In this document: positions 880-33,397 of the stretch, piece by piece
Layout of the letters: each line of letters begins with the position of its first letter
Numbering within the stretch: the stretch's first letter is position 1
Source of the DNA: Sulfurovum sp.
Lineage (GTDB): Bacteria > Campylobacterota > Campylobacteria > Campylobacterales > Sulfurovaceae
Length of the DNA stretch: 33,670 nt
Assembly (NCBI GenBank): GCA_026996325.1
Contig: JALWLU010000193.1
Location: forward strand, 1-33,670
Direction: 5' to 3'
Translations under genes and position numbers: made by a program
Notes under the pieces: model-generated
Database searches by the model: none
Told to the model about the DNA's origin: nothing
What the model saw: only the letters and a program-made list of their open reading frames with translations

Positions 880-963
880 GCTTTTCCCATAGGAAAAGCA
901 TACCAAAACTCTTCACTCTTAATTCTTAACTCTTCACTCCTAAAAGCGGTAACCCGCTTTTAG
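880..963 (+). repeat. heptamer-hairpin element A: left hairpin GCTTTTCC-cata-GGAAAAGC (880-899), ATACCAAAA, heptamers CTCTTCA/CTCTTAA/TTCTTAA/CTCTTCA (909-936), right hairpin CTAAAAGCGG-taac-CCGCTTTTAG (940-963)
   Basis: Read directly: two perfect inverted repeats flanking four in-register degenerate 7-mers; same architecture as the elements at 4225, 12461, 12532 and 13462. Confidence 0.85.
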
Positions 964-1931
964 ACCGTTCCCTGTTCGTACATCGCTCTCATCTTCTCTT
1001 TCTCTTTCTCTCTTTTGAGCTTTTCAGCCTCTTTTTCACGGAAGCCTTTAACCGAGAAGCCAAGCCACATCAGAATCGGAGAAGCGACAAAGATAGAGGA
1101 GTAGGTACCGACGATGATACCCACCAGCAGCGTGAAGCTGAAGCCTCGAATGATCTCTCCACCAAAAAGGAAGAGTGTCAGGACCACGAAGAAGGTGGTC
1201 AGTGAGGTCAGCGTCGTACGTGAAAGGGTCTGCGTGACCGACTCGTCGATGATCTCGGAGAGGATCACGCGCTTGCTGGTCTTGATACCCTCACGGATAC
1301 GGTCGAAGACGATAATGGTATCGTTAAGCGAGTATCCCAAAATCGTCAGCAGCGCTGCCAGTGTATCGAGGTTGACCTCGACATTGAAAAGTACTACCGC
1401 TCCCATGGCAATGGTCACATCGTGCACCAGCGCCATCACCGAAGCGACGGCAAAACGCCACTCGAAACGGAAGGAGACGTAAATGAGAATACCCAGAATT
1501 GCCAGTACCAGCGACATGATCCCCTTCTCTCGCAGTTCCGAACCGACCTTCGCGCCGACCATATCGACCCTTCGTACTTCGAAGTTGCCTGTACCTTTGA
1601 GCAGTTCGCGCATCGTGTCACCCATATCCTTACCAAGCGATTTGGAGCTGGTCTTGGTACGGATGATCACTTCGTTGTCATTGTCGAAGTAGGTCACACT
1701 TGCATTCTCGTAATTCTTGTCTGCAGTGATCGCTTTTCGTATCTTGTCGATGGGGGCTTTCTGGTCATAGTGCACCTGCACCAGCGTACCGCCGGCGAAG
1801 TCAAGACCGTAGTTGAAACCCTTGGTGAAGATCAGTGCCAGAGAGATCAGTACCAGCGTCACGGAGAGGATACCGAAACGCTTCGCTTTGCTCATCAGTG
1901 CGATCGGTTTGTCATACTTGAAGATTTCCAT
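960..1931 (-). CDS. secF: protein translocase subunit SecF
   Basis: 323 aa; GLDFAGGTLVQV, LGYSLNDTIIVFDRIREG; follows secD with TAATG overlap. Confidence 0.95.
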   Translation of the reverse strand: MEIFKYDKPIALMSKAKRFGILSVTLVLISLALIFTKGFNYGLDFAGGTLVQVHYDQKAPIDKIRKAITADKNYENASVTYFDNDNEVIIRTKTSSKSLGKDMGDTMRELLKGTGNFEVRRVDMVGAKVGSELREKGIMSLVLAILGILIYVSFRFEWRFAVASVMALVHDVTIAMGAVVLFNVEVNLDTLAALLTILGYSLNDTIIVFDRIREGIKTSKRVILSEIIDESVTQTLSRTTLTSLTTFFVVLTLFLFGGEIIRGFSFTLLVGIIVGTYSSIFVASPILMWLGFSVKGFREKEAEKLKREKEKEKMRAMYEQGTV

Positions 1932-3514
1932 TACTTTTTCCCCTCCGTTTTAATACCGAACCAGAAGCCAAGCCGCTTTCTGTCGATCTTTGGCAGCAGC
2001 CACTGGTAGATACCGTGTGTTCCGACAATCGCCGTCAGCATCGAAGCGAGGATACCGATACCCATTGTCAGCGCGAAGCCCTTGAGCGGGCCCGTACCGT
2101 ACGCCCAGAGTACCACTGCGGCGATCAGCGTCGTCACGTTGGCATCGAGGATCGCGGTAAAGGCTTTGTCGTACCCCTCTTCGATCGCCTTGGCCACCGA
2201 CTTGCCCTCATGCAGCAGTTCACGTATACGCTCGTTGATGATGACGTTGGCATCGACTGCCATACCCACCGTCAGGACGATACCCGCCATACCCGGCAGC
2301 GTCAGCGTCGCGCCAAAGAGCGACATGATCGCCAGAATCAGGAACAGGTTGCCCACAAGCGCCACATCGGCAATGACACCCGCCATTCCGTAGTAGAGCA
2401 CCATGAAGATGACAACCAGAATGAAGCCCAGTGCCAGTGCCATAGAGCTTGCCTTGATGTTGTCCGCTCCAAGGCTTGGACCAACGGAGCGCTTCTCCAT
2501 GACATAGACCGGCGCCAGCAGCGCACCCGAACGCAGGGCAATGGCAAGGTCATGCGCCTCGTCAAGCTTGAAGTTCCCCGAGATCTGCACACGCCCGCCA
2601 CCGATACGCTCGCGTATGACCGGTGCGGAGTAGACCTTGTTGTCAAGCACGACCGCCATACGCTTGCCCACCGCCTTGGCTGTAAAGTCACCGAAGATCT
2701 TCGCGCCCTGTCCGTTGAGGGTGAAATTGATCACCGGCTGGTTGTTCTGATCGAACCCCACCTTCGCATCGGTAAGCATAGAGCCGTCAAGCACCGGAAT
2801 GGCACGCAGCAGATACTTCTGCGATTCGTTGTAGACATCGGGCAGAATGACATCACCGTAGCTTCGCGCTTCGTTGGGACTCATCGTTCCCACGCGTGCT
2901 GCACGGTCTTCATCCACCGCCATCAGCTGCAGGTTTGCCGCACGGGCGATGAGCTCACGGATACGCTGTTCATCCGCCTGTGTCTTGATACCTGGTACTT
3001 CGACAAGGATCTTGTCCTCGCCCTGTTTGGCGACCGTCGGTTCTGCCAGTCCGAACTCGTTCAGACGGTTACGGATCGTATCGACAGCCTGGCTGATGGC
3101 ATCTTTTTGGGTACGTGCAATCTCTTCGTGCGTCATTTTCAGCGTAAACTTCAGTCCATCGTATGTCAAGACCGTGCCGGGGATCTCCTTGCGCAGCAGT
3201 GCCGTCGCTTTTGCGACATCGTCCTTGTCGAGCAGTTCGAAGGTGACAACACCCTCTCCGGCGATGTGCAGATCGTCATAGATGATATCCGCATCGTCAA
3301 AGAGGTACTTGACACTTGCTGCGATCGACTTGGTACGCGACTCGATAGCCACATCGCTCTTGACGCCAAGCAGCATATGCAGACCTCCCTGCAGGTCGAG
3401 CCCCAGGGTGATCTTCTTTCCGCTCTCGCTCTGCGTCAGCGACGGAATGGAGAAGACCACCCCGAAGATGAGCGCAAAGGCGAAGAGTACCAGTCTGAAA
3501 TTAAGCGCTTTCAT
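1931..3514 (-). CDS. secD: protein translocase subunit SecD (likely start at MKALNFRL, 3514; ORF extends to 3538)
   Basis: LGLDLQGGLHMLLGV, GMAVDANVIINERIRELL motifs; adjacent to secF and yajC. Confidence 0.95.
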   Translation of the reverse strand: MKALNFRLVLFAFALIFGVVFSIPSLTQSESGKKITLGLDLQGGLHMLLGVKSDVAIESRTKSIAASVKYLFDDADIIYDDLHIAGEGVVTFELLDKDDVAKATALLRKEIPGTVLTYDGLKFTLKMTHEEIARTQKDAISQAVDTIRNRLNEFGLAEPTVAKQGEDKILVEVPGIKTQADEQRIRELIARAANLQLMAVDEDRAARVGTMSPNEARSYGDVILPDVYNESQKYLLRAIPVLDGSMLTDAKVGFDQNNQPVINFTLNGQGAKIFGDFTAKAVGKRMAVVLDNKVYSAPVIRERIGGGRVQISGNFKLDEAHDLAIALRSGALLAPVYVMEKRSVGPSLGADNIKASSMALALGFILVVIFMVLYYGMAGVIADVALVGNLFLILAIMSLFGATLTLPGMAGIVLTVGMAVDANVIINERIRELLHEGKSVAKAIEEGYDKAFTAILDANVTTLIAAVVLWAYGTGPLKGFALTMGIGILASMLTAIVGTHGIYQWLLPKIDRKRLGFWFGIKTEGKK

Positions 3515-3788
3515 TGCCTGTTTCGACCTTTCTGGCAACGAAGGCTCTGTCGAGCTTTACAACGGTTTCATCGTTGAGCTTGATCTTGAGGAAATCCTCT
3601 TCAGGCTTGACAATCGTCGCGATCAATCCGCCGTTGGTGATGATCTTGTCACCCTTCTGCAGCGATGCTAGCATCTCTTCGTGTGCTTTACGCTGTTTGT
3701 TCTGCGGTCTGATGATCAGAAAGTAGAAAATTGCAAAGAGGATCAGTAGCGGTACGAATGATCCCAGTAAACCTGCCTGTTGTTCCAT
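3501..3788 (-). CDS. yajC: preprotein translocase subunit YajC (start at MEQQAGLL, 3788)
   Basis: FYFLIIRPQNKQRKAHEEMLASLQKGDKIITNGGLIATI is typical of YajC; precedes secDF. Confidence 0.93.
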   Translation of the reverse strand: MEQQAGLLGSFVPLLILFAIFYFLIIRPQNKQRKAHEEMLASLQKGDKIITNGGLIATIVKPEEDFLKIKLNDETVVKLDRAFVARKVETGNESA

Positions 3789-3800
3789 TAGGAATCCTTT

Positions 3801-5228
3801 ATGAATAAAATGAGACAATATTTTAGCAGTAATATATTAACAGGAGCCTTTTTGAAGCACCTACCAGCCCTATGCAGCACCCACACCACCAAAGCCGCTC
3901 TCCTCTGCGCTGCAGCCATCGCAGTGACCGGTTCGGCATTTCTCTACCTCTCCCACTTTGGTATCACGATCCCGTGGCTCAACAGCCTGCTTGGCCTGCT
4001 CTTTTTCTACCTTCTGCTGCCGGCCAATGCACGCACCTGGTTCTTTACAGGAACTCTCCTCTCCCTGCTCTGGTTCTGGTGGATAGCGATGAGCTTCCTC
4101 CACTACAACATGGCATGGGCCATCCCGCTCGTGCTTCTCTTCATCGCCCTCGTCTACGGCACCCTCTTCTGGCTCATCGCCAAAACCGCCGAATTTCTCA
4201 CAAACAGACTATTCAAAAACAGAAGCGTTGCCACGCAACGCATACCAAAACTCTTCACTTTTCACTCTTCAGAAGGTGAATTGCAAAGCAAGAGAAGCTC
4301 CCCTGGGGGACTCTTCACTTTAAGCCTAAAGGGCCTCGGCCTTTTAAGTATGAGCTATATTCACCCTTTCACCTTCGACTGGTTCAAGCCGGAACTGGTC
4401 TTCACAGAGAGTGATTTTGGCATCCAGAAGTGGCAGTTTGCCATAATACTCGCAGCCCTTGTCCTTGTCCACTGGCGCAAAAGCCTGCTTTTCCTGCCGC
4501 TGGTACTGCTTGCCTGGCAACCCATACCGCAGAGCACCAAAGCCAATGGCGCCGATATTGCGCTGGTAACGACCTATACACCGGTAGAGGCGAAGTGGAA
4601 CAAAACACGTCATCCTGCACAGTTTCAAAAACTCTTTTCCGCCATCGACAAAGCCATCGATGCCAACAGAAGCCTTGTCGTACTGCCTGAATCGGTTTTT
4701 CCCGTCTTTCTCAACCGCGACCAGAAACTTTTCGATGCGTTGCATGCGCGCGCAAAACGCATCAACATCGTCACCGGAGCACTCTACTGGGATGGCAAAA
4801 CACCGCGCAACGCCGCCTACATCTTCACCAAAGAGGGCAAGGTGCGTGTGGCCAACAAGGTCATACTGGTTCCCTTTGGCGAAGCCAATCCCCTACCCGA
4901 CTTTCTCAGCGACTGGGTCAACAGGGTCTTCTACGACAATGCCGTCGACTACAAGGCCGATGCAGCCATCTCCGACTATACAATAGAGGGCAAAACCTAC
5001 CGCAACGCCATCTGCTTTGAAGCCACCAGCGAACCGCTCTACAAGGGGGGTCCGAAACGGATGGTGGTACTCAGCAACAACGGCTGGTTCGTCCCCTCCA
5101 TAGAGCCGACACTGCAGCGAATTTTGCTACAATACTACTCCAGAAAGTACGGTACGTCCATCTACCATGCAGTCAATATGGCATCTTCGTACACTATCAA
5201 AAAGGGAAAGGTATCCTACCGCCCATGA
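3801..5228 (+). CDS. lnt: apolipoprotein N-acyltransferase (alternative start TTG 3852)
   Basis: 475 aa; N-terminal TM helices then nitrilase domain with VVLPESVFP (Glu), VRVANKVILVPFGE (Lys), NAICFEA (Cys). Contains an in-frame low-complexity insert encoded by repeat element B. Confidence 0.9.
   Translation: MNKMRQYFSSNILTGAFLKHLPALCSTHTTKAALLCAAAIAVTGSAFLYLSHFGITIPWLNSLLGLLFFYLLLPANARTWFFTGTLLSLLWFWWIAMSFLHYNMAWAIPLVLLFIALVYGTLFWLIAKTAEFLTNRLFKNRSVATQRIPKLFTFHSSEGELQSKRSSPGGLFTLSLKGLGLLSMSYIHPFTFDWFKPELVFTESDFGIQKWQFAIILAALVLVHWRKSLLFLPLVLLAWQPIPQSTKANGADIALVTTYTPVEAKWNKTRHPAQFQKLFSAIDKAIDANRSLVVLPESVFPVFLNRDQKLFDALHARAKRINIVTGALYWDGKTPRNAAYIFTKEGKVRVANKVILVPFGEANPLPDFLSDWVNRVFYDNAVDYKADAAISDYTIEGKTYRNAICFEATSEPLYKGGPKRMVVLSNNGWFVPSIEPTLQRILLQYYSRKYGTSIYHAVNMASSYTIKKGKVSYRP
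4225..4348 (+). repeat. heptamer-hairpin element B, in frame inside lnt: hairpin GCGTTGC-cac-GCAACGC (4225-4241), ATACCAAAA, CTCTTCA/CTTTTCA/CTCTTCA (4251-4271), degraded second unit with CTCTTCA (4311-4317), imperfect right hairpin CCTAAAGGGCC-tc-GGCCTTTTAAG (4325-4348)
   Basis: GCATACCAAAACTCTTCACT is shared with element A (899-917); same hairpin/heptamer layout. Confidence 0.8.
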
Positions 5229-5605
5229 GATTCAAAAAATTCTTCATCGCCCCCATCCGCGGTTACCAGTACATCTCGAAGATGTTGCCGGCAAACTGCC
5301 GCTACTACCCAACCTGCTCGGAGTATGCCGCGTGGCAGTTTCAGTTCAATGCACCCCACAGGGCCCTTGCGGCAAGTACGCTTCGCATTCTGCGCTGCAA
5401 CCAGCTCTTTGCCGGGGGTATTGACTACCCAGTTGTGACATTCATACCGCCAAAGATAATTAAATCACTCGATATTAATGGACTTTGTGGCAAAATCAAC
5501 ATAGATTACTGGCTCGTCCCCAAAGAGGGAAGCACAGACCAATTTTACGTCATAAAGGATTTCGATGCCGTATCCAGACACGATCACTCTGACAAACCCG
5601 CTTGA
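5225..5605 (+). CDS. yidD: membrane protein insertion efficiency factor YidD
   Basis: [28 protein letters not shown] signature; ATGA overlap with lnt stop. Confidence 0.93.
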
Positions 5606-6593
5606 TATGCACCTGCATCTGCGCGACGGCGAGATGCTGCACAACATCGCAAAGGGCAGTGCCAAAAGCTTTTCGGGTGCGATCATCATGCCGAACCTCG
5701 TACCGCCTGTGAGCACCAAAGAGGATGTGACCGCCTACAAGGCGCGCATTCTTGAAGCCATAGGCGATGAGCGCTTCACCCCCTATATGACACTTTTTTT
5801 CAAACCAGGCTACGACAGAACCTTTCTTGAGAGTGTCAAGGAGGAGATTACCGCTATCAAACTCTACCCTGCCGGCATCACCACCAACTCAGAGGGTGGC
5901 GTGAGCGGATTTGACGTAGAAGAGCTGCGCCCCGCACTTGAGGCGATGGGCGAGCTTGGCATTCCGCTCTGCGTACACGGAGAGACCAACGGGTTTGTCA
6001 TGGACAGAGAAGCGGAGTTCGTGCCCATCTACGAAAAGCTTGCGGCAGCCTTTCCAAAGCTCAAGATCATCATGGAGCACATCACCACAAAAGAGAGTGT
6101 CGCAGCACTCGACCGCTTTGAGAACCTCTATGCCACCATCACCGTCCACCACCTTATCATCACCCTTGACGATGTTGCAGGAGGTATGCTGCGCCCGCAT
6201 CTCTTCTGCAAGCCCATCGCCAAACGTCCGGAAGACAGAGAGGCGCTGCTCAAGGTCGCGCTTGGGGCCCACCCCAAAGTGATGTTCGGATCCGACTCCG
6301 CACCGCATCCGCGCCATGCCAAAGAGAGCTGTGGCTGCGCAGCAGGCGTCTTCACCGCGCCCATCGCACTGCAGCTGCTGACACAGCTATTCGAACACCA
6401 CGGTGCACCTCTTGAGAATCTGCAAAAGTTCATCTCCAACACCGCTCAAAACATCTACGGCATCACGCCACCTAAAAAACGTGTCATACTGGAGAGAAAA
6501 CCGTTCACTGTACCGCAGGAGTACAACGGTGTCGTACCGATGTATGCAGAAGAGAACATTGACTACACCATCAAGGAGATCATCAATGGATAA
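5565..6593 (+). CDS. pyrC: dihydroorotase
   Basis: 342 aa; [30 protein letters not shown]. Confidence 0.95.
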
Positions 6594-7230
6594 CAGACTC
6601 AAAGACTTCGAAACCGGCCATGAGAACTTCAAAAAGGTCAAGTTCAACGAAAATAAGGACCGCTTTCAGGCACTGGTTGAAAAGGGGCAGCACCCCAAAG
6701 CACTCTTCATCGGCTGCAGCGATTCGCGTGTGATGCCGGCAATGATCACCGGCAGCAAGGCAGGCGACCTCTTCATTGTCCGAAACATCGGCAACTTCGT
6801 CGCCCCCTTCCGTCCCGATGCGGACTACCATGCCACCGCGTCTGCCATCGAGTATGCCGTCAGCGTGCTTGGCATCTCCGATATCATCGTCTGCGGCCAC
6901 TCCCACTGCGGCGCCATCGCTTCGCTCTACAAGGAGATAGAGGCGACACCGGAGAACATCCACACCATCAAGTGGCTCGAACTGGGGCATGCAGCCAAAA
7001 AGGTCGCACTGCTCTCACACAGAGACAGACCCCATGAGGAGCTGCTGCGCTACACCGAAAAGATCTCGGTCATCCATCAGCTTGACAACCTCCTTACCTA
7101 CCCAGCGGTAAAGCGGCGTGTAGATGAGGGGAAACTCTTCCTCCACGGCTGGCACTACAATATCGAAACAGGTGACATCGAATACTACGATGATGACGAT
7201 TACGAATTCAAGCCGCTGAGTCAAAAGTAA
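6586..7230 (+). CDS. beta-class carbonic anhydrase (start MDNRLKDF at 6586)
   Basis: [31 protein letters not shown] motifs. Confidence 0.93.
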
Positions 7231-7291
7231 TATTGGTGTATAATAATAAAATTGGTTATTAAATTATAAGTTTTTATTTAAAGGATGTCTC

Positions 7292-8212
7292 GTGATTGCT
7301 AATAACATCGAAGCCCTGGTAGGCAATACGCCGCTTGTACGTATCAACTCCCTTTCCAATGAAACGGGTACTACCATTCTTGGCAAGTGTGAATTCATGA
7401 ACCCCACCTCATCGGTCAAAGACCGTATCGCCTACAATATGATCAACGAGGCGATGAAGCGTGGTGAGATCACCAAAAATACTACCATCATCGAACCCAC
7501 CAGCGGCAATACCGGTATCGCGCTGGCAGCGATCTGTGCAGCCGAAGGGCTAAGGCTCATACTGACGATGCCCGAATCGATGAGTATCGAGCGGCGCAAA
7601 CTGCTCAGCCACTTTGGTGCCGAACTGGTACTCACCCCCGCTGCCGAAGGTATGAACGGTGCCATCAGCAAGGCTGCTTCTCTTGTCGAAGAGCTTGATG
7701 ACGCCGTTGTGCTCCAACAGTTTAACAACCCCGACAATCCGGCAATCCACCGCACGACAACTGCTGTCGAAATTCTTGACGATACAGAAAAAAATGTTGA
7801 CATCTTTATCGCCGCCGTTGGGACTGGCGGAACACTCACCGGCACAGCCGAAGTGCTCAAAGAACAGCTTCCCAATATCCAAATTATCGCAGTAGAGCCT
7901 GAAACCTCTGCCGTGCTTGAGGGAAAACCTGCCGGACCGCACAAGATTCAGGGCATCGGTGCGGGATTCATCCCCGAAATCCTCAACACCGACATATACG
8001 ACGAGGTGATGGCTGTCTCCAACGAAGCCGCGTTTGCAATGGCTGCAAAGATTGCCAAAGATGAGGGGCTGCTCATCGGCATCTCTGCAGGCGCGAATCT
8101 CGAAGCGGCATACCAGGCTGCCAAGCGTCCGGAAAACAGAGGCAAGACCATCGTCACCATTCTCTGTGACACGGCAGAGCGCTACCTCTCCACAGAGCTC
8201 TTCGACAACTGA
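7292..8212 (+). CDS. cysK: cysteine synthase (O-acetylserine sulfhydrylase), GTG start
   Basis: 306 aa; NPTSSVKDRIAYNMI (PLP Lys), TSGNTGIALA, GTGGTLTG. Confidence 0.93.
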   Translation: MIANNIEALVGNTPLVRINSLSNETGTTILGKCEFMNPTSSVKDRIAYNMINEAMKRGEITKNTTIIEPTSGNTGIALAAICAAEGLRLILTMPESMSIERRKLLSHFGAELVLTPAAEGMNGAISKAASLVEELDDAVVLQQFNNPDNPAIHRTTTAVEILDDTEKNVDIFIAAVGTGGTLTGTAEVLKEQLPNIQIIAVEPETSAVLEGKPAGPHKIQGIGAGFIPEILNTDIYDEVMAVSNEAAFAMAAKIAKDEGLLIGISAGANLEAAYQAAKRPENRGKTIVTILCDTAERYLSTELFDN

Positions 8213-8216
8213 GCCA

Positions 8217-8798
8217 ATGGCAAAAACGCTGCTTGAGACCATCCGCATAGAGGAAGGCAAAGCGCACAACCTCCACTACCATCAGGCACGTTTCGACAGG
8301 AGCCGAAAAGCGCTTTTTCGTGCCACTACCTCCATTGAGCTGCAAAAGCATATTGTCCCTCCCAAAGAGGGCCTCTACCGATGCCGTATCCTTTATATGG
8401 AAGATATCGAATCTGTCGAGTACCTTCCCTACACGCCGAAAACAGTTAACAGACTCAAGGTGGTCAGGAACGATACACTCGAATACCGCTACAAATACGC
8501 CGACCGTACGCCGCTTGATGCCATGCTTGAAGCACACCCCGATGCCGATGAGATCATCATCGAACAAAACGGTCTGCTGACCGATACCACCATCGCAAAC
8601 ATCGCTTTTTATGACGGCAGCCGGTGGCTTACGCCCAAAACCCCGCTGCTTGAAGGGACGATGCGCGCAAGCCTGCTAGAGAGCGGCAAGCTCCGGAAGG
8701 CTGATATCCGCGCGCATGACATAGCACGCTACACACACGTGGCTTTAATGAATGCTATGATAGGATTTAAAATTCTAAAAGCGGTGACCATCACATGA
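8217..8798 (+). CDS. aminotransferase class IV (aminodeoxychorismate lyase-like)
   Basis: TLLETIRIEEGKAHNLHYHQARFDRSR; ADEIIIEQNGLLTDTTIANIAFYDG; TPLLEGTMRASLLESG. Confidence 0.85.
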   Translation: MAKTLLETIRIEEGKAHNLHYHQARFDRSRKALFRATTSIELQKHIVPPKEGLYRCRILYMEDIESVEYLPYTPKTVNRLKVVRNDTLEYRYKYADRTPLDAMLEAHPDADEIIIEQNGLLTDTTIANIAFYDGSRWLTPKTPLLEGTMRASLLESGKLRKADIRAHDIARYTHVALMNAMIGFKILKAVTIT

Positions 8799-8829
8799 GA
8801 CTCTCCATCCCAACACAAGGCAGGCAGCT

Positions 8830-9276
8830 ATGACCATCAACCTCTTTCAGACCAAAGAGTACAAGGCGCTGATGACAGAGCATATCAGCAAAACCATCGC
8901 TTACCTTTTCAGCAAGAACCAGGAGTTCGCCATCGCTTGCGAGATAGAGCATATCGACTTCAATCCGCCGCTGCCAGCATCGATTATGGAGAGTTTTAAC
9001 GATATCGTACTCTTCGTTCTGAGTGGATATACTTTCGAGAGTGCCAAACTTGAGGAGGAGTATTTTATATTCGAAGCGGGATTTGGAGAGGAGAATTTCG
9101 GATCGACGGTAACCATTCCGCTGCTTGCCATCAAGCAGGTGATCGTTGGCGAGCACCCTATTGTGCTCAACCTTGCAAAGCCCTCACCCAAACAGGAGCG
9201 CTCCACACAGAACTCCATGGAAGCGCTGCTGAAGAATCCCGAGAACAAGAGGCTTTTGAAAAAGAAGAAGCGCTAA
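8830..9276 (+). CDS. conserved hypothetical protein, possibly SspB-like fold
   Basis: 148 aa; core YFIFEAGFGEENFGSTVTIPLLAIKQVIVGEHPIVLN resembles SspB by eye. Confidence 0.55.
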   Translation: MTINLFQTKEYKALMTEHISKTIAYLFSKNQEFAIACEIEHIDFNPPLPASIMESFNDIVLFVLSGYTFESAKLEEEYFIFEAGFGEENFGSTVTIPLLAIKQVIVGEHPIVLNLAKPSPKQERSTQNSMEALLKNPENKRLLKKKKR

Positions 9277-9284
9277 ACTTCGGC

Positions 9285-10187
9285 TTAGCACTGTCCTGCA
9301 AGGATATAGTCGACAACGTTGTCAACGTAAGCGTTATGCTTGTTCTCTTTGGTGTAGACAATGTAGAACTTGCGCTTCATCGTATAGCCGCGCAGTCTCG
9401 CTTCAAAAAGCTCCCCTTTTGCCACTTCATCTGCAATGGCATGCTTGGAGATGATGGAGACAACCGGATGCTCCGGATCTTTTTTCGCTCTTTTGATAGT
9501 CTGCAGTACCGCTGTGGTATTTCCTACTTCGGAAAGCACATTAAAGCTCTTACAGGAGACACCCAGCTCTTCAAAGACTTCGGCAACCACACGTCTTGTG
9601 TGTGAGCCCTCTTCACGACAGATCCACTGGAAGTCGTAGAGCTCTTCGGTTTTGACGATCTTTGGCAGAGGAGAGTTGCTTACCAGTACCAGCTCATCCT
9701 CCAGCCACTCTCTGTAGATCAGGTCGCTGTCCATTACCGGTGATTCGATAAGTCCTACATCAAGCTTTCTTTCTTTCAGTTTGGCAACGATATGGTCACT
9801 CGTGTCGATACTGAGGTTGATATCGTTGTTGATCGCTCTTCCCATAGTATTGAGACACTCGCCTGGGATGATGTAGGTCCCAATCGTGAACGATGCACCG
9901 AGTCTGAAGGTCATCTCTTTGTTGATGATCTTAAGTACATCTTTTTCCGCTGCGTGGATCTCTTTTTCAAGACGCGTAGCGATCTTGTAGAGCTCTTCAC
10001 CCTCGGCGGTCAGCTTGATACCGTTCTTTTTTCTCTCGATAATTTTGACACCGAGATACTTCTCGATGAATTTGATCTGCTGGGTCACTGCCGGCTGAGA
10101 GATACCCAGCTTGGCAGATGCCTTGGAGAAGCTTCTCTCTCTCGCTACAGTTAGAAAGGTTTCCAGTTTGACAAAATCTTTTAACAT
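9285..10187 (-). CDS. LysR-family transcriptional regulator (start MLKDFVKLETFL)
   Basis: N-terminal HTH LETFLTVARERSFSKASAKLGISQPAVTQQIKFIEKYLGVKIIER. Confidence 0.93.
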   Translation of the reverse strand: MLKDFVKLETFLTVARERSFSKASAKLGISQPAVTQQIKFIEKYLGVKIIERKKNGIKLTAEGEELYKIATRLEKEIHAAEKDVLKIINKEMTFRLGASFTIGTYIIPGECLNTMGRAINNDINLSIDTSDHIVAKLKERKLDVGLIESPVMDSDLIYREWLEDELVLVSNSPLPKIVKTEELYDFQWICREEGSHTRRVVAEVFEELGVSCKSFNVLSEVGNTTAVLQTIKRAKKDPEHPVVSIISKHAIADEVAKGELFEARLRGYTMKRKFYIVYTKENKHNAYVDNVVDYILAGQC

Positions 10188-10388
10188 TATATTTCCTTTG
10201 TAGTACATGTATAGCCATGTTTAATTAGTGGCATTATATCTGATTATACTTAATTGAACATAAGGGATGCTTATTGAGTTCGTCCTAATTCAACTTTACT
10301 TATGCACTTCAATCCTTGTGCAAGTATGGCATATATGGTTTAACCAAGAGTTGGATATAATCATAAGACTATAGGAGCAACAGAATAT

Positions 10389-12455
10389 ATGGAAGCAATA
10401 CTCAACACCCTCAACCCCGCACAGCGTGAAGCGGTCGAACATATCGACGGCGCGATGCTCATCCTTGCAGGGGCGGGAAGCGGAAAGACAAAAACCCTTA
10501 CCACACGCCTTGCCTACCTCATCGGCGAAGTGGGTATCGACCCGGCAAACACCCTGACACTGACATTTACCAACAAAGCTGCTGCCGAGATGCGTGAACG
10601 CGCACTCAAACTGATGCCAAACCGCGTCTCCTACCCTCCGCTGCTCTGCACCTTCCATAAATTCGGTCTGCTCTTTTTAAAGTTCCACATTGAAAAGCTC
10701 GGACGCAGCAACAACTTCGTCATCATCGACAGTGATGACAAGAAGCGCCTGCTTAGAAGCATTGCAAAAGAGCTCAAGATCGACCTCAATCTCTCCTTTA
10801 TCGCATCGGAGATATCCAAGTATAAAAACACCCTTCTCACCCCTGAAGTGGTCATTCAGAAAGCGGAACTACCAGACTACAAAAAAGTCGCACAGATCTA
10901 TGAAGCATACCAGTCGAATATCGTCGAGAACAACCTGGTGGACTTCGATGATCTTCTGATGCTGACATACCAGATACTCGAAAGCAACGACGATCTTAGG
11001 CGCGAGACGAGCGAGCGCTACAAGTACATCATGGTAGATGAGTACCAGGATACCAACGAACTGCAGTACCGCCTGCTCGAACTGCTTGCCAGCGAGCACG
11101 ACAACCTCTGCGTGGTTGGAGACGACGACCAGAGTATCTACGGCTGGCGCGGGGCGAACATCCGAAACATCCTGGAGTTTGCCGACAACTTCAAAAACTG
11201 CAAAACGGTCAAGCTCGAGACCAACTACCGTTCCACGGAGCCCATTCTCAAAGCGGCCAATGCGCTCATCGAACACAACTCCACCCGTCTTGGAAAAACA
11301 CTGACCTCCCACAAGGGTGAGGGGCCGGAGGTAAAACTGCTCCACTCCCTTGACGAGTCGATGGAGGCCAAAGCGATCGCACACCAGATACACGACCTCA
11401 TCGATCAGGGGGCGGACCCTGACGAGATCGCCGTACTCTACCGCATCAACGCCCTCTCCCGTTCGCTTGAAGAAGGATTTACCAAAGAGGGGCTCAACTT
11501 CAAACTTATCGGCGGCATACGCTTCTACGAACGCGCGGAGATCAAAGACATCATCTCCTACTTCAGGGTATTTGCCAACCCCACGGATGATTTCTCACTG
11601 CTACGCATCATCAACAAACCGAAGCGGGGCATTGGAAAAGCCTCCATCGAGAAGCTGCAAAAGGCCGCCTTCGATGCCCAGCTGCCGCTCTTTGTCTACA
11701 TCAAGGAGAGCCTCGAAGGGAAACAGCCGCTTGTCATCAGTAAGAAGGTAGCCGGCGCACTTGCCAAGCTCGTTGAAGACATCGAAGTACTGCGCGAAGA
11801 GATGGAAGAGAACCTCGAGAACTTCATTACCCTCTTTGAGGAGCGCATCAGACTCAAGGATCACTACGCCGGTATGGTGGACGGTTTTGACCGCATTCTA
11901 AATATCGACGAATTCTACGGTTACTTCCGCGACGCCGTCAGCAAGAACCCCGACCTCACACTCGATGAGTTCCTCAACGACATCTCTCTGCAGAGCGACC
12001 AGGACCAGATAGAGGAGGATGCCATCACCATTATGAGCATCCACGCAGCAAAAGGTCTCGAGTTCGAGCACCTCTTTGTCATCGGCATGGAGGAGGAGTT
12101 CTTCCCGCTGCTTGGAGAGGGCTGCAACATGGAAGAGGAGCGCCGTTTGGGCTATGTGGCCATCACCCGCGCCAAGAGCGACCTGACACTCTGCTACGTC
12201 GACAGCCGCTTCTACAAGGGTCGCCGAAAGATGCTTGACAAGAGCCGATTCCTTGGCGAAGCGGGCCTCATCCAGGATGCCTCACTGAAGATCACCAAAC
12301 AGGCCGCATTCAAAAAAGGCGATCTGGTCAAACACAAGATATTCGGCATCGGCCGCGTTCAGGCAGCCAACAAGTCGGGCAAAGAGTACAAACTGCTCAT
12401 CAACTTCGGCGGCAACAAGAAAGAGATCCTTAGCTCTTTCGTGCAAGCAGTCTAA
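10389..12455 (+). CDS. uvrD: UvrD/PcrA/Rep-family SF1 ATP-dependent DNA helicase
   Basis: 688 aa; ILAGAGSGKTKTLTTRLAYL, VDEYQDTNELQYRLL, GDDDQSIYGWRGA, SIHAAKGLEFEHLFVIGMEE. Confidence 0.95.
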   Translation: MEAILNTLNPAQREAVEHIDGAMLILAGAGSGKTKTLTTRLAYLIGEVGIDPANTLTLTFTNKAAAEMRERALKLMPNRVSYPPLLCTFHKFGLLFLKFHIEKLGRSNNFVIIDSDDKKRLLRSIAKELKIDLNLSFIASEISKYKNTLLTPEVVIQKAELPDYKKVAQIYEAYQSNIVENNLVDFDDLLMLTYQILESNDDLRRETSERYKYIMVDEYQDTNELQYRLLELLASEHDNLCVVGDDDQSIYGWRGANIRNILEFADNFKNCKTVKLETNYRSTEPILKAANALIEHNSTRLGKTLTSHKGEGPEVKLLHSLDESMEAKAIAHQIHDLIDQGADPDEIAVLYRINALSRSLEEGFTKEGLNFKLIGGIRFYERAEIKDIISYFRVFANPTDDFSLLRIINKPKRGIGKASIEKLQKAAFDAQLPLFVYIKESLEGKQPLVISKKVAGALAKLVEDIEVLREEMEENLENFITLFEERIRLKDHYAGMVDGFDRILNIDEFYGYFRDAVSKNPDLTLDEFLNDISLQSDQDQIEEDAITIMSIHAAKGLEFEHLFVIGMEEEFFPLLGEGCNMEEERRLGYVAITRAKSDLTLCYVDSRFYKGRRKMLDKSRFLGEAGLIQDASLKITKQAAFKKGDLVKHKIFGIGRVQAANKSGKEYKLLINFGGNKKEILSSFVQAV

Positions 12456-12460
12456 ATTAG

Positions 12461-12515
12461 TGAAGAGTGAAGAGTGAAGAGTGAAGAGTTCTTGTATGCT
12501 TTCCTATCGGAAAGC
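12461..12515 (-). repeat. heptamer-hairpin element C1 (reverse orientation): 4 x TGAAGAG (12461-12488) and left hairpin GCTTTCC-tatc-GGAAAGC (12498-12515)
   Basis: Reverse complement reads GGAAAGCATACAAGAACTCTTCACTCTTCA, matching the left end of elements A and B. Confidence 0.85.
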
Positions 12516-12531
12516 TCTTTTATAAATAGAA

Positions 12532-12611
12532 GCATTGCAAAGCAATGCATACCGACACTATTCACTACTCACTACTCACTACTCACTAAAAATTCTCCCA
12601 AGGAGAATTTT
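12532..12611 (+). repeat. heptamer-hairpin element C2: hairpin GCATTGC-aaa-GCAATGC (12532-12548), ATACC, ACTATTC + 3 x ACTACTC (12557-12584), right hairpin AAAATTCTCC-caa-GGAGAATTTT (12589-12611)
   Basis: Read directly; right arm contains the truB Shine-Dalgarno (AAGGAG). Confidence 0.88.
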
Positions 12612-12613
12612 CA

Positions 12614-13444
12614 ATGAACCGTCTTTTCGTCGTCAACAAACCCATCTTCGTCAGTTCCAACCGCTATATGGGATATGTCAAACGCAAGTACGGTACCAAA
12701 AAGGTAGGCTTCTCAGGTACGCTCGATCCCTTTGCCACGGGGTGTCTCATTGTCGCAACGGGGCAGTACACCAAACTCTTTCAGTACCTTGACAAAACAC
12801 CCAAAACCTACCGTGCGACACTCTGGCTTGGGGCGAACTCTCCAAGCCTTGACATCGAAAATGTCGATAGCATCAAAGAGGTGGCTTCTTTTTCCAAAGA
12901 GCAGATTCTCTCCGCACTCTCTTCACTCAAAGAGAAGCTTACCTACTATCCGCCAAAATTTTGTGCCAAGAAGATTAATGGCAGGCGTGCGTATGAACTG
13001 ATGCGCGAAGGCAGGGAGGTGAACCTCAAAACCATCACCTCCACCATTTACGACATCCAACTCCTGAACTACAACCACCCCTTCATCCACTTCGAAGCCA
13101 CGGTAAGCGAAGGTACTTACATCAGAAGTCTTGGTGCGCTCATCGCTGACAAGCTCGGTGTCGATGCGACACTCAGCTCCCTGCACCGCGTAAGGGAAGG
13201 AAGGTTCCACTATGACAATGAGAAAGCACTCAACCCCTTCGATCACCTTGCCATCCCGCGCAACACCTACACCGGAGATGACGAATATCTTGAGCTGGGG
13301 AAGAAACTCTCGCTTGCATATTTCGACACCAAAGAGAATGGTACCTACCTTGTAGAGACCAAAAACTTCTACAGCATCATCGCAATAGAAGACGGCACAA
13401 TAACCTACAAACTCAACCGCCTCGGAAAACCAAAGGAGTCATAA
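12614..13444 (+). CDS. truB: tRNA pseudouridine(55) synthase TruB
   Basis: NRLFVVNKPIFVSSNRYMGYVKRKYGTKKVGFSGTLDPFATGCLIVATG. Confidence 0.95.
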   Translation: MNRLFVVNKPIFVSSNRYMGYVKRKYGTKKVGFSGTLDPFATGCLIVATGQYTKLFQYLDKTPKTYRATLWLGANSPSLDIENVDSIKEVASFSKEQILSALSSLKEKLTYYPPKFCAKKINGRRAYELMREGREVNLKTITSTIYDIQLLNYNHPFIHFEATVSEGTYIRSLGALIADKLGVDATLSSLHRVREGRFHYDNEKALNPFDHLAIPRNTYTGDDEYLELGKKLSLAYFDTKENGTYLVETKNFYSIIAIEDGTITYKLNRLGKPKES

Positions 13445-13461
13445 ATGTATTATCCACCCAC

Positions 13462-13540
13462 CTGCTCCCTGCTCCCTACTACCTACTACCTATCTCCTAC
13501 CCTCTACTCCCTTTTTCATAAGGCAGTCGCCTTATGAAAA
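13462..13540 (+). repeat. heptamer-hairpin element D: ~7 degenerate heptamers 2 x CTGCTCC, 2 x CTACTAC, CTATCTC, CTACCCT, CTACTCC (13462-13510) and right hairpin TTTTCATAAGGC-agtc-GCCTTATGAAAA (13513-13540)
   Basis: 7-nt register holds across the array; 12-bp perfect arms; right arm includes the ispE ATG. Confidence 0.82.
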
Positions 13541-32195: not shown

Positions 32196-32567
32196 CTAAA
32201 ATGAGGGAAGATAGCTGCAAATATCCTCTTTGCCAAGATCGCAGGCCCGTTTGAGGTAACGCCTGCCCGCCTCCTTGTCTGCAGCGATCTTCTCCCAGTC
32301 ATCCCCGTAGTAGAGTACCATCGCCGCAAAGAGGCAGCCGTCGGCATCTTCAAGCGCACAGCCGCGTTTGGCATACACAAGCGCCTTAGCAAGGCCGCCT
32401 TCCACACCCGCTTCATAGCGCTGCTTGGTCTCCATCAGGTAGTTGGCCGCCTGGGTACACGCCGCACCGTCACCCTTCTGGCACGCCTGCTTCTCTTCAA
32501 AAAAGCCCGCATGAAGCCCTACAGAAAACAGTAGTATAATCAGGGTCAGGTGATAACGATAATTCAC
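32196..32567 (-). CDS. small secreted Sel1-like repeat protein (GTG start overlapping the transposase stop)
   Basis: Signal peptide LTLIILLFSVGLHAG; cysteine-spaced repeats KGDGAACTQAANYLM, KRGCALEDADGCLFAAMVLYYG. Confidence 0.7.
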   Translation of the reverse strand: MNYRYHLTLIILLFSVGLHAGFFEEKQACQKGDGAACTQAANYLMETKQRYEAGVEGGLAKALVYAKRGCALEDADGCLFAAMVLYYGDDWEKIAADKEAGRRYLKRACDLGKEDICSYLPSF

Positions 32568-33397
32568 TTTTTACTCCTCTTTATTATCTCATGTACAGCA
32601 GGTTGCGATATGCCCAGTACTTTAGCGATGCTATGCTGTGAATAGCCCTGCTCAAATGCTTTGACGATTCTATCATTGCGCTCTTTTTTGTCTTTGTAAC
32701 CTGTTAGCATTTTTGTAAGTTTTTCAATATCCTGCTTTTTGTCAATATTGGACGCTTCTACCAAAGAAGATGCGTTTTTAAGCTCTTGCAGCTCGGAAGT
32801 ATCTACAATGCCATTAAGCACTGTCCGTATCGCTTCGTAGTCGTTTTGATGCTTTTGTGCTATCCATGCGTTTTGCAGGCATTCGGGTATAGTTTCATAA
32901 TCCAAAAAATAGTGGTAAGAGCTATAGGGGTACTCTTTGATATCCTGTACCATATTGGCTTTAAGCGGGTTTTGTTCTATGTATCGCATCAGGGTATAGA
33001 GATACGCTTCATTAGTGATATACCAAGATTTGAACCTGCCTTGCCAAAGGTGTCCTGTTCTGTTGTATTTTTTATTGAAGTAGATCGCGTAGTTCATATT
33101 GAGTTGTCGCATAAATTTGGAGAGATTGGGTTGCGTGATCTCTATGAGAAGATGATAGTGGTTGCCCATCAGAGAGTAGTTGTGAAGTGTTATGTCGTAA
33201 CTCTTCATATAAGAGCACATCAACTCTTCAAAATATTCATAATCGCACGCCTCTTTAAAGACAACCCTTTGCTCTACCCCTCTGTTGACGATATGATAAT
33301 ATCCTGGTATCTCTATGCGTGGTTTTCTTGGCATGAACGCTCCTTGGTGGAGTATTATAGTACAAATCCTATAAAGTTATTATTATCACCTGACCCT
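32542..33397. mobile_element. RAYT-type element bounded by 15-bp perfect inverted repeats AGGGTCAGGTGATAA / TTATCACCTGACCCT
   Basis: 32542-32556 and 33383-33397 are exact reverse complements and flank the Y1 transposase. Confidence 0.8.
32564..33334 (-). CDS. REP-associated tyrosine transposase (Y1_Tnp/IS200-like) with C-terminal HTH
   Basis: MPRKPRIEIPGYYHIVNRGVEQR, SLMGNHYHLLIEI (HUH), TGHLWQGRFKSWYI, MRYIEQNPLKANMV; C-terminal HTH HSIAKVLGISQPAVHEIIKRS. Confidence 0.92.
   Translation of the reverse strand: MPRKPRIEIPGYYHIVNRGVEQRVVFKEACDYEYFEELMCSYMKSYDITLHNYSLMGNHYHLLIEITQPNLSKFMRQLNMNYAIYFNKKYNRTGHLWQGRFKSWYITNEAYLYTLMRYIEQNPLKANMVQDIKEYPYSSYHYFLDYETIPECLQNAWIAQKHQNDYEAIRTVLNGIVDTSELQELKNASSLVEASNIDKKQDIEKLTKMLTGYKDKKERNDRIVKAFEQGYSQHSIAKVLGISQPAVHEIIKRSKK

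Follow-up and report, generated by a model that had tools for sequence, protein, structure and literature searches.

A 33,670-nt stretch of a Sulfurovum sp. genome, referred to here as the window (contig C193 of a 1.84-Mb assembly with 223 contigs, 84.6% complete), carries five units, A to E, in which tandem 7-nt repeats (heptamers) are accompanied by hairpins. All five lie where a first-pass annotation had placed them, and they raise the question of what kind of element they represent and how it came to these positions. They belong to a real dispersed family, as that annotation proposed, although its views on dimers, a conserved core, the right hairpin, precedents and enzyme tracking need correction. 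With confidence somewhat above even, we consider the units to be a dispersed element resembling repetitive extragenic palindromes (REPs) and REPINs (REP dimers), whose heptamer tail has a fixed length of 28 nt and whose gene-edge hairpins would be made and kept by template switching during replication.

Dispersal was analyzed by employing the search pattern GCATACCN{0,10}CTNYTNMCTNYTNM, with the reversed pattern as control. In the assembly, 31 matches were obtained vs. 0 reversed controls, and the layout is far beyond chance. Relatives contained from 0 to 31 units per genome. Within a sample of 150 genomes of the family, 54 matched, some single matches being due to chance since the pattern is degenerate, while unit-rich genomes showed 10–31 matches and 0–2 controls. 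Approximately 10 genomes of the same family matched in a phylum-wide sample, compared to 1 of 367 from other families, and a named scan returned Sulfurovum, Nitratifractor, other Campylobacterales metagenome-assembled genomes (MAGs) and, unexpectedly, the Ruminococcaceae MAG RUG13294. Further, BLAST searches with two units alone produced matches scattered over dozens of non-orthologous places in relatives, and gene starts and gene ends carried units in roughly equal numbers.

The units share a common anatomy over loci, namely an AT-rich AATAAAAGC, a hairpin of the form GCNTTNC-loop-GNAANGC, ATACC, three variable bases, (ACTNTTC)n, ACT and a locus-specific hairpin. Consequently, the claim that no conserved core exists does not hold, as the left hairpin, ATACC, the 3-nt spacer and (ACTNTTC)4ACT are all conserved. 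In the left stems, 132 of 167 distinct units pair at 7/7 positions, position 3 being TA, AT or GC and position 6 GC, TA, CG or AT. Where at least 5/7 positions were paired, 97.7% of the pairs hold, compared to 79.6% when arms were shuffled among units (maximum 82.0%). This two-sided covariation indicates that structure, and not sequence, is kept, so that, as in REPs and REPINs, a hairpin conserved by pairing is dispersed between genes. On one strand the left hairpin is followed by TTTTATT. In place of the GTAG or CGTC tag of classical REPs, the units have GGTAT or GGTTT when read from the side of the heptamers. The heptamers are contiguous, with no unique spacers between repeats, which confirms that these are not CRISPR arrays. 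Rfam covariance models gave no match in the window or in six loci, and a known RNA family was rejected on this basis.

Units C and D, formerly listed as separate, are two halves of one head-to-head, REPIN-like dimer in the spacer between a UvrD/Rep-like helicase gene and truB. Unit C (minus strand) comprises four reverse-oriented heptamers (12459–12490; array 12459–12489), beginning at most 6 nt from the helicase stop codon, and the hairpin GTAT-GCTTTCC-tatc-GGAAAGC (12493–12515; hairpin proper 12498–12515). Its inverted partner D (plus strand) comprises the hairpin GCATTGC-aaa-GCAATGC (12532–12548) with ATACC (12532–12553 in all), a spacer with four heptamers, CTATTCA and three CTACTCA, with CT at the end (12554–12588; array 12556–12588), and a gene-edge hairpin, AAAATTCTCC-caa-GGAGAATTTT (12589–12611), which bears the truB ribosome-binding site. 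The pair reads (AGTGAAG)4-TTCTT-GTATGC hairpin-AT-rich-hairpin GCATACC-GACA-(CTACTCA)n. The same inverted pair, with other hairpin and heptamer variants, was found in G137, G156, G033, G112, G104, G160, G141 and others, i.e., in most of the 13 heptamer-bearing species. Among the units of this genome, 4 of 30 form head-to-head dimers according to a strict script and two more by eye. The lack of a left hairpin that had been ascribed to unit D applies instead to unit E (13460–13540, plus strand), where the heptamers (CTGCTCC, CTACTAC; 13460–13512, array 13460–13492) are followed by the hairpin TTTTCATAAGGC-agtc-GCCTTATGAAAA (13513–13540), which includes the ispE start codon; in relatives G033 and G118 a left hairpin is present at the equivalent place.

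The heptamer tail has a preferred length. Four heptamers were counted in 94 of 179 Sulfurovaceae tails, five in 15 and more in 3, counts in which the search patterns bias the low side and leave the high side unbiased; such a mode of four is also known from Xanthomonas-type arrays. G tracts are rare, GGG being present in only 3/179 arrays, and for this reason the G-quadruplex explanation given for the Xanthomonas GGGAATC repeats cannot apply here. The heptamer strings did not occur in the bacterial literature searched. Three units of this genome, unit B included, have in common the array together with a nested module of 39 nt that is nearly identical among them; directly past CTCTTCACT they diverge, and the dispersed unit therefore ends on its right side at this point. 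Three genomes together have six loci at which this 39-nt module, GAAGGTGAATTGCGAAGCAAGAGAAGCTCCCCTGGGGGA, is nested within a heptamer array, as though it targeted the arrays (window 4271–4309; L363, L366, L364, L365 and L367), and a second module, GAAGTGACAAGTGCCCCTGGGG, lies inside arrays of G137, G112 and G120. Other 7-nt arrays adjoin units as well: around ten copies of CAGATAG (L007, ~1370–1460) and four of GGGAAAA (L003, ~1455–1485).

The right hairpin is not the conserved module it was taken for. It differs between loci and derives from the adjacent gene edge: the start, stop or ribosome-binding site of that gene is paired with a copy of itself in inverted orientation, as in a tsaD-like start (ACTAAGGATCA-ctca-TGATCCTTAGT), a queH-like start with a 16-bp stem and a fabG-like end (these three genes were named by reading translations, and ispE, truB, secF and lnt were identified via NCBIfam). 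Perfect stems of 7 bp or more start at the array end in 14 of the 30 units of this genome; the corresponding frequency is 1.0% for random positions, and 6 of 130 positions resembling a ribosome-binding site have one. Among 59 Sulfurovaceae units, 28 carry such a stem vs. 1.2% of random positions. The stem accompanies the heptamers: at the UvrD–truB spacer of 68 species, it was present in 10 of 13 heptamer-bearing species and in 0 of 55 others, relatedness being ignored. Stems vary between species yet remain paired (AAATTCTCC/GGAGAATTT, GTGAACTCC/GGAGTTCAC, TTGATCCC/GGGATCAA and TGAATACC/GGTATTCA).

Unit A (plus strand) illustrates this at the end of secF, which is encoded on the minus strand. 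Its left hairpin, GCTTTTCC-cata-GGAAAAGC (880–899), belongs to the conserved stem family and is followed by the ATACC tag (880–904 in all), a spacer with four degenerate heptamers, CTCTTCA, CTCTTAA, TTCTTAA and CTCTTCA (905–939), and the gene-edge hairpin CTAAAAGCGG-taac-CCGCTTTTAG (940–963), which contains the secF stop codon. The gene-edge stem covaries among species, and its loop, TAAC in G000, is inverted (GTTA) in the close relatives G110 and G144. Such an inversion of the spacer would be expected of template switching between the arms (PMC8604942, PMC8794818).

In order to follow turnover, orthologous sites were compared, and these show presence and absence of the unit. In the UvrD–truB spacer of 68 congeners, with classes assigned by eye, 24 were empty or short (0–45 nt), 22 held other palindromic or REPIN-type repeats, often GTAGGGTGCG, 13 a heptamer unit and 9 something else. 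Classical GTAGGGTGCG REPINs were seen to fill this spacer in relatives without a heptamer unit (L101, L102, L108 and L117). Sister species differ: the unit-bearing G137 groups with G144 and G110, which have a REPIN, and the unit-bearing G000 with G102, whose spacer has 21 nt with two heptamers. On a locus tree of 357 columns, the heptamer state required 9 changes for 13 carriers vs. a shuffled mean of 12, which corresponds to much turnover together with some inheritance.

The second site lies within lnt, the apolipoprotein N-acyltransferase gene (window 3801–5228), to which the in-frame unit B adds ~40 residues that some relatives lack. Unit B (plus strand) has the left hairpin GCGTTGC-cac-GCAACGC (4225–4241) with ATACC (4225–4246 in all), a heptamer array split by the nested 39-nt module (GAAGGTGAATTGC..CTCCCCTGGGGGA; 4247–4318) and a weak, imperfect gene-edge hairpin in lnt codons (4319–~4347). 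The unit is absent in G112 and G033, and G110 and G144 have the heptamer array only. Gene-edge stems of 13–17 bp are near-perfect in G114, G092 and G102 and weak, partly paired, in the element-free G112, which fits the copying of a short inverted repeat that was already there, although pairing might instead be kept by selection.

Taken as a REP/REPIN-like element, the units would be copies, mostly halves, of a non-autonomous palindromic element. In a half, the covarying hairpin of 7 bp would be followed by a tag pointing outward, GGT(A/T)T (ATACC when read on the opposite strand), then by a spacer of 3 nt and finally by a fixed tail numbering about four heptamers, (ACTNTTC)4ACT; two such halves placed head to head would form the full dimer. 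Copies, probably mobilised in trans, would have spread to gene borders and once in frame into a coding sequence. At the junction of tail and gene, a hairpin has arisen in which the start, stop or ribosome-binding site pairs with its own inverted copy, probably because the nascent strand folds back and is copied during replication; the same template switching may also keep the stem perfect while the gene edge drifts. The heptamer tail might act as a length or binding ruler.

Several observations weigh against this interpretation. Unit A was found in most relatives, and part of the family is therefore old and vertically inherited; the inheritance signal at UvrD–truB points the same way. No target-site duplication, a mark of MITEs, was noticed at the compared sites, where no systematic search was made, and covariation of gene-edge stems could stem from selection for RNA structure. 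Further, no dedicated mobilising enzyme was found among the Y1 transposases and reverse transcriptases examined. The only Y1 transposase of the assembly, P0001 (window 32564–33334, minus strand), has no flanking units, and G014, a 100% complete genome with 4 to 9 units depending on the pattern, encodes no Y1 transposase. The suggestion of the first-pass annotation that copy number might track an enzyme thus failed for both enzyme types, and its statement that no transposase lies next to any unit was confirmed. Reverse transcriptase was discarded as a cause since PF00078 is absent from many unit-rich genomes, among them G033 (single-contig), G090, G092 and G000, and a viral carrier was likewise rejected with a single viral-contig match only.

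An alternative is that the units are ordinary REPINs with an unusual tag, mobilised by a REP-associated tyrosine transposase (RAYT) of the same genome and decorated with slippage repeats. The dimer anatomy agrees with REPINs, P0001 lies in the window itself and resembles REP_Tyr_transpos (NF047646; 70.4 bits, below the cut-off of 80), and a Y1 gene is present in 18 of 21 genomes having at least four units. However, the Y1 background is high (114/150 genomes of the family sample), the unit-bearing G014, G114 and G137 lack Y1, and Y1 counts do not track units over the 150 genomes, which excludes a RAYT/Y1 enzyme as sole cause. Neither a RAYT flanked by cognate repeats nor a copy number tracking RAYT, as in a RAYT-mobilised REPtron, was found: the Y1 loci examined contained a few GTAG hairpins and no flanking units. 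The tag is GGTAT/GGTTT instead of GTAG, and classical GTAG REPINs in equivalent spacers carry neither heptamers nor gene-edge hairpins. We therefore regard this explanation as unlikely. P0001 itself is flanked by two stretches that look like copies of the same small gene's 5' portion, and the motif CTGACCCTGATTAT recurs on both flanks.

Little probability is also left to selected cis-regulatory elements, i.e., gene-edge hairpins that act as paired terminators or control translation and are not mobile DNA. The left hairpin with TTTTATT does resemble a weak terminator, start codons or ribosome-binding sites lie within the right hairpin, and the gene-edge stem is maintained among species via changes on both arms. 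Nevertheless, the unit occurs at gene starts about as often as at gene ends, as well as within lnt, and the UvrD–truB spacer is empty or short in 24/68 species. Finally, that the heptamers are plain slippage repeats and the hairpins coincidental neighbours is very improbable: an excess of heptameric repeats is known from many bacteria (PMC4692102) and identical heptamer pairs are more frequent within arrays (0.49) than between them (0.24), but the fixed ACC-N4 phase to the hairpin, the sharp four-unit mode with its steep drop at five and the hairpin covariation speak against it, and phase and mode refute the simple form of this reading.

The same tail was found in some Oscillospirales, which are gut Firmicutes. 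The Ruminococcaceae genome RUG13294 contains 29 ACC-N4-heptamer units vs. 1 control, in the arrangement (AGTGAAG)n-TNNN-GGT hairpin-GGATNNNAATCC-hairpin ACC-N4-(CTCTTCA)n. Its hairpins are rich in GC, and their sequences are unrelated to those of Sulfurovaceae. The Oscillospirales tag is GGTGT/GGTAT, and 24 of 57 arrays have four heptamers. Perfect gene-edge stems of at least 7 bp are rarer (5/54 vs. 1.1% of random positions). The distribution is patchy, 9 of 201 genomes in the family of RUG13294 matching, and RUG13294 has two Y1 matches without flanking units. Contamination of the MAG is unlikely because the GC content around the units is 0.62–0.64 and the hairpins differ. The tail shared by Sulfurovaceae and Oscillospirales may reflect either transfer or convergence. 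Two further observations concern similar arrangements. In the Ruminococcaceae genome G175, a RAYT-like open reading frame (L297, 1310–1840) carries in-frame GTAGGGGCGACC-type REPs, with TTCGGAA heptamer arrays nearby (~2470–2500), and the viral contig L320 (~4540) has a third, unrelated hairpin pair with the GGT/ACC-heptamer layout.

The nearest published relatives are the GTAG/CGTC REPs and the Xanthomonas GGGAATC heptamer arrays, precedents that the first-pass annotation had missed (REP dimers, PMC3733652; four-heptamer pairs, PMC4692102). In line with GTAG/CGTC REPs and REPINs (PMC3733652, PMC3116915), the units have a small covarying hairpin, an unpaired tag at one end, head-to-head dimers, positions at gene borders and an occasional in-frame insertion into an open reading frame; REP dimers located inside palindromes are on record (PMC3733652, PMC3116915), and CGTC REPs likewise have no dedicated transposase (PMC3733652). 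Here, in contrast, the tag is GGTAT/GGTTT, four heptamers lie outward of it and a gene-edge inverted copy closes the unit. In Xanthomonas, inverted pairs of four-heptamer arrays lie at gene ends, and the four-unit preference of GGGAATC and of the Nostoc GGGGATT was explained by a G-quadruplex from four G-tracts; no hairpin core or gene-edge hairpin is described for these repeats (PMC4692102). For Geobacter metallireducens, 49 copies of four-heptamer GGACCGG elements are reported (PMC2700814), proposed to be regulatory RNA, which are similarly dispersed with exactly four tandem heptamers, the heptamer being GC-rich unlike here; no description of hairpin flanks was found in the text consulted. 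The TAACTGA repeats of Beggiatoaceae, Cyanobacteria and Bacteroidetes are also heptamer direct repeats beside start codons, patchy over phyla and without a known mechanism, but they consist of a single heptamer sequence in mostly 2–6 copies, with no hairpin pair described (PMC4679880). Template switching is known to make and repair perfect stems as reverse-complement copies and to invert the loop (PMC8794818, PMC8604942), whereas here such hairpins appear repeatedly where a dispersed element meets the edge of a gene.

It is conceivable, albeit doubtful, that there is a general REPIN-like class defined by a 28-nt four-heptamer tail at a fixed distance from a GGT-tagged hairpin, and not by the hairpin itself. 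Common to Sulfurovaceae and Oscillospirales, it may include the Xanthomonas and Geobacter four-heptamer families and may move by another enzyme or by replication itself, leaving the inverted gene-edge copy at the junction.

What is surprising in these results is that the tail spans two phyla and that four units are the rule. Heptameric repeats are over-represented in many bacteria with no agreed explanation, and their four-unit preference had been ascribed to G-quadruplexes. Here, arrays that are unable to form them show the preference, at a constant spacing from a covarying hairpin and in two phyla whose hairpin sequences are unrelated, and what the heptamers do can therefore be tested directly. 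Hairpins at gene edges, those at start codons and in the lnt interior included, further provide natural replicate cases over many species for the birth and upkeep of hairpins by template switching.

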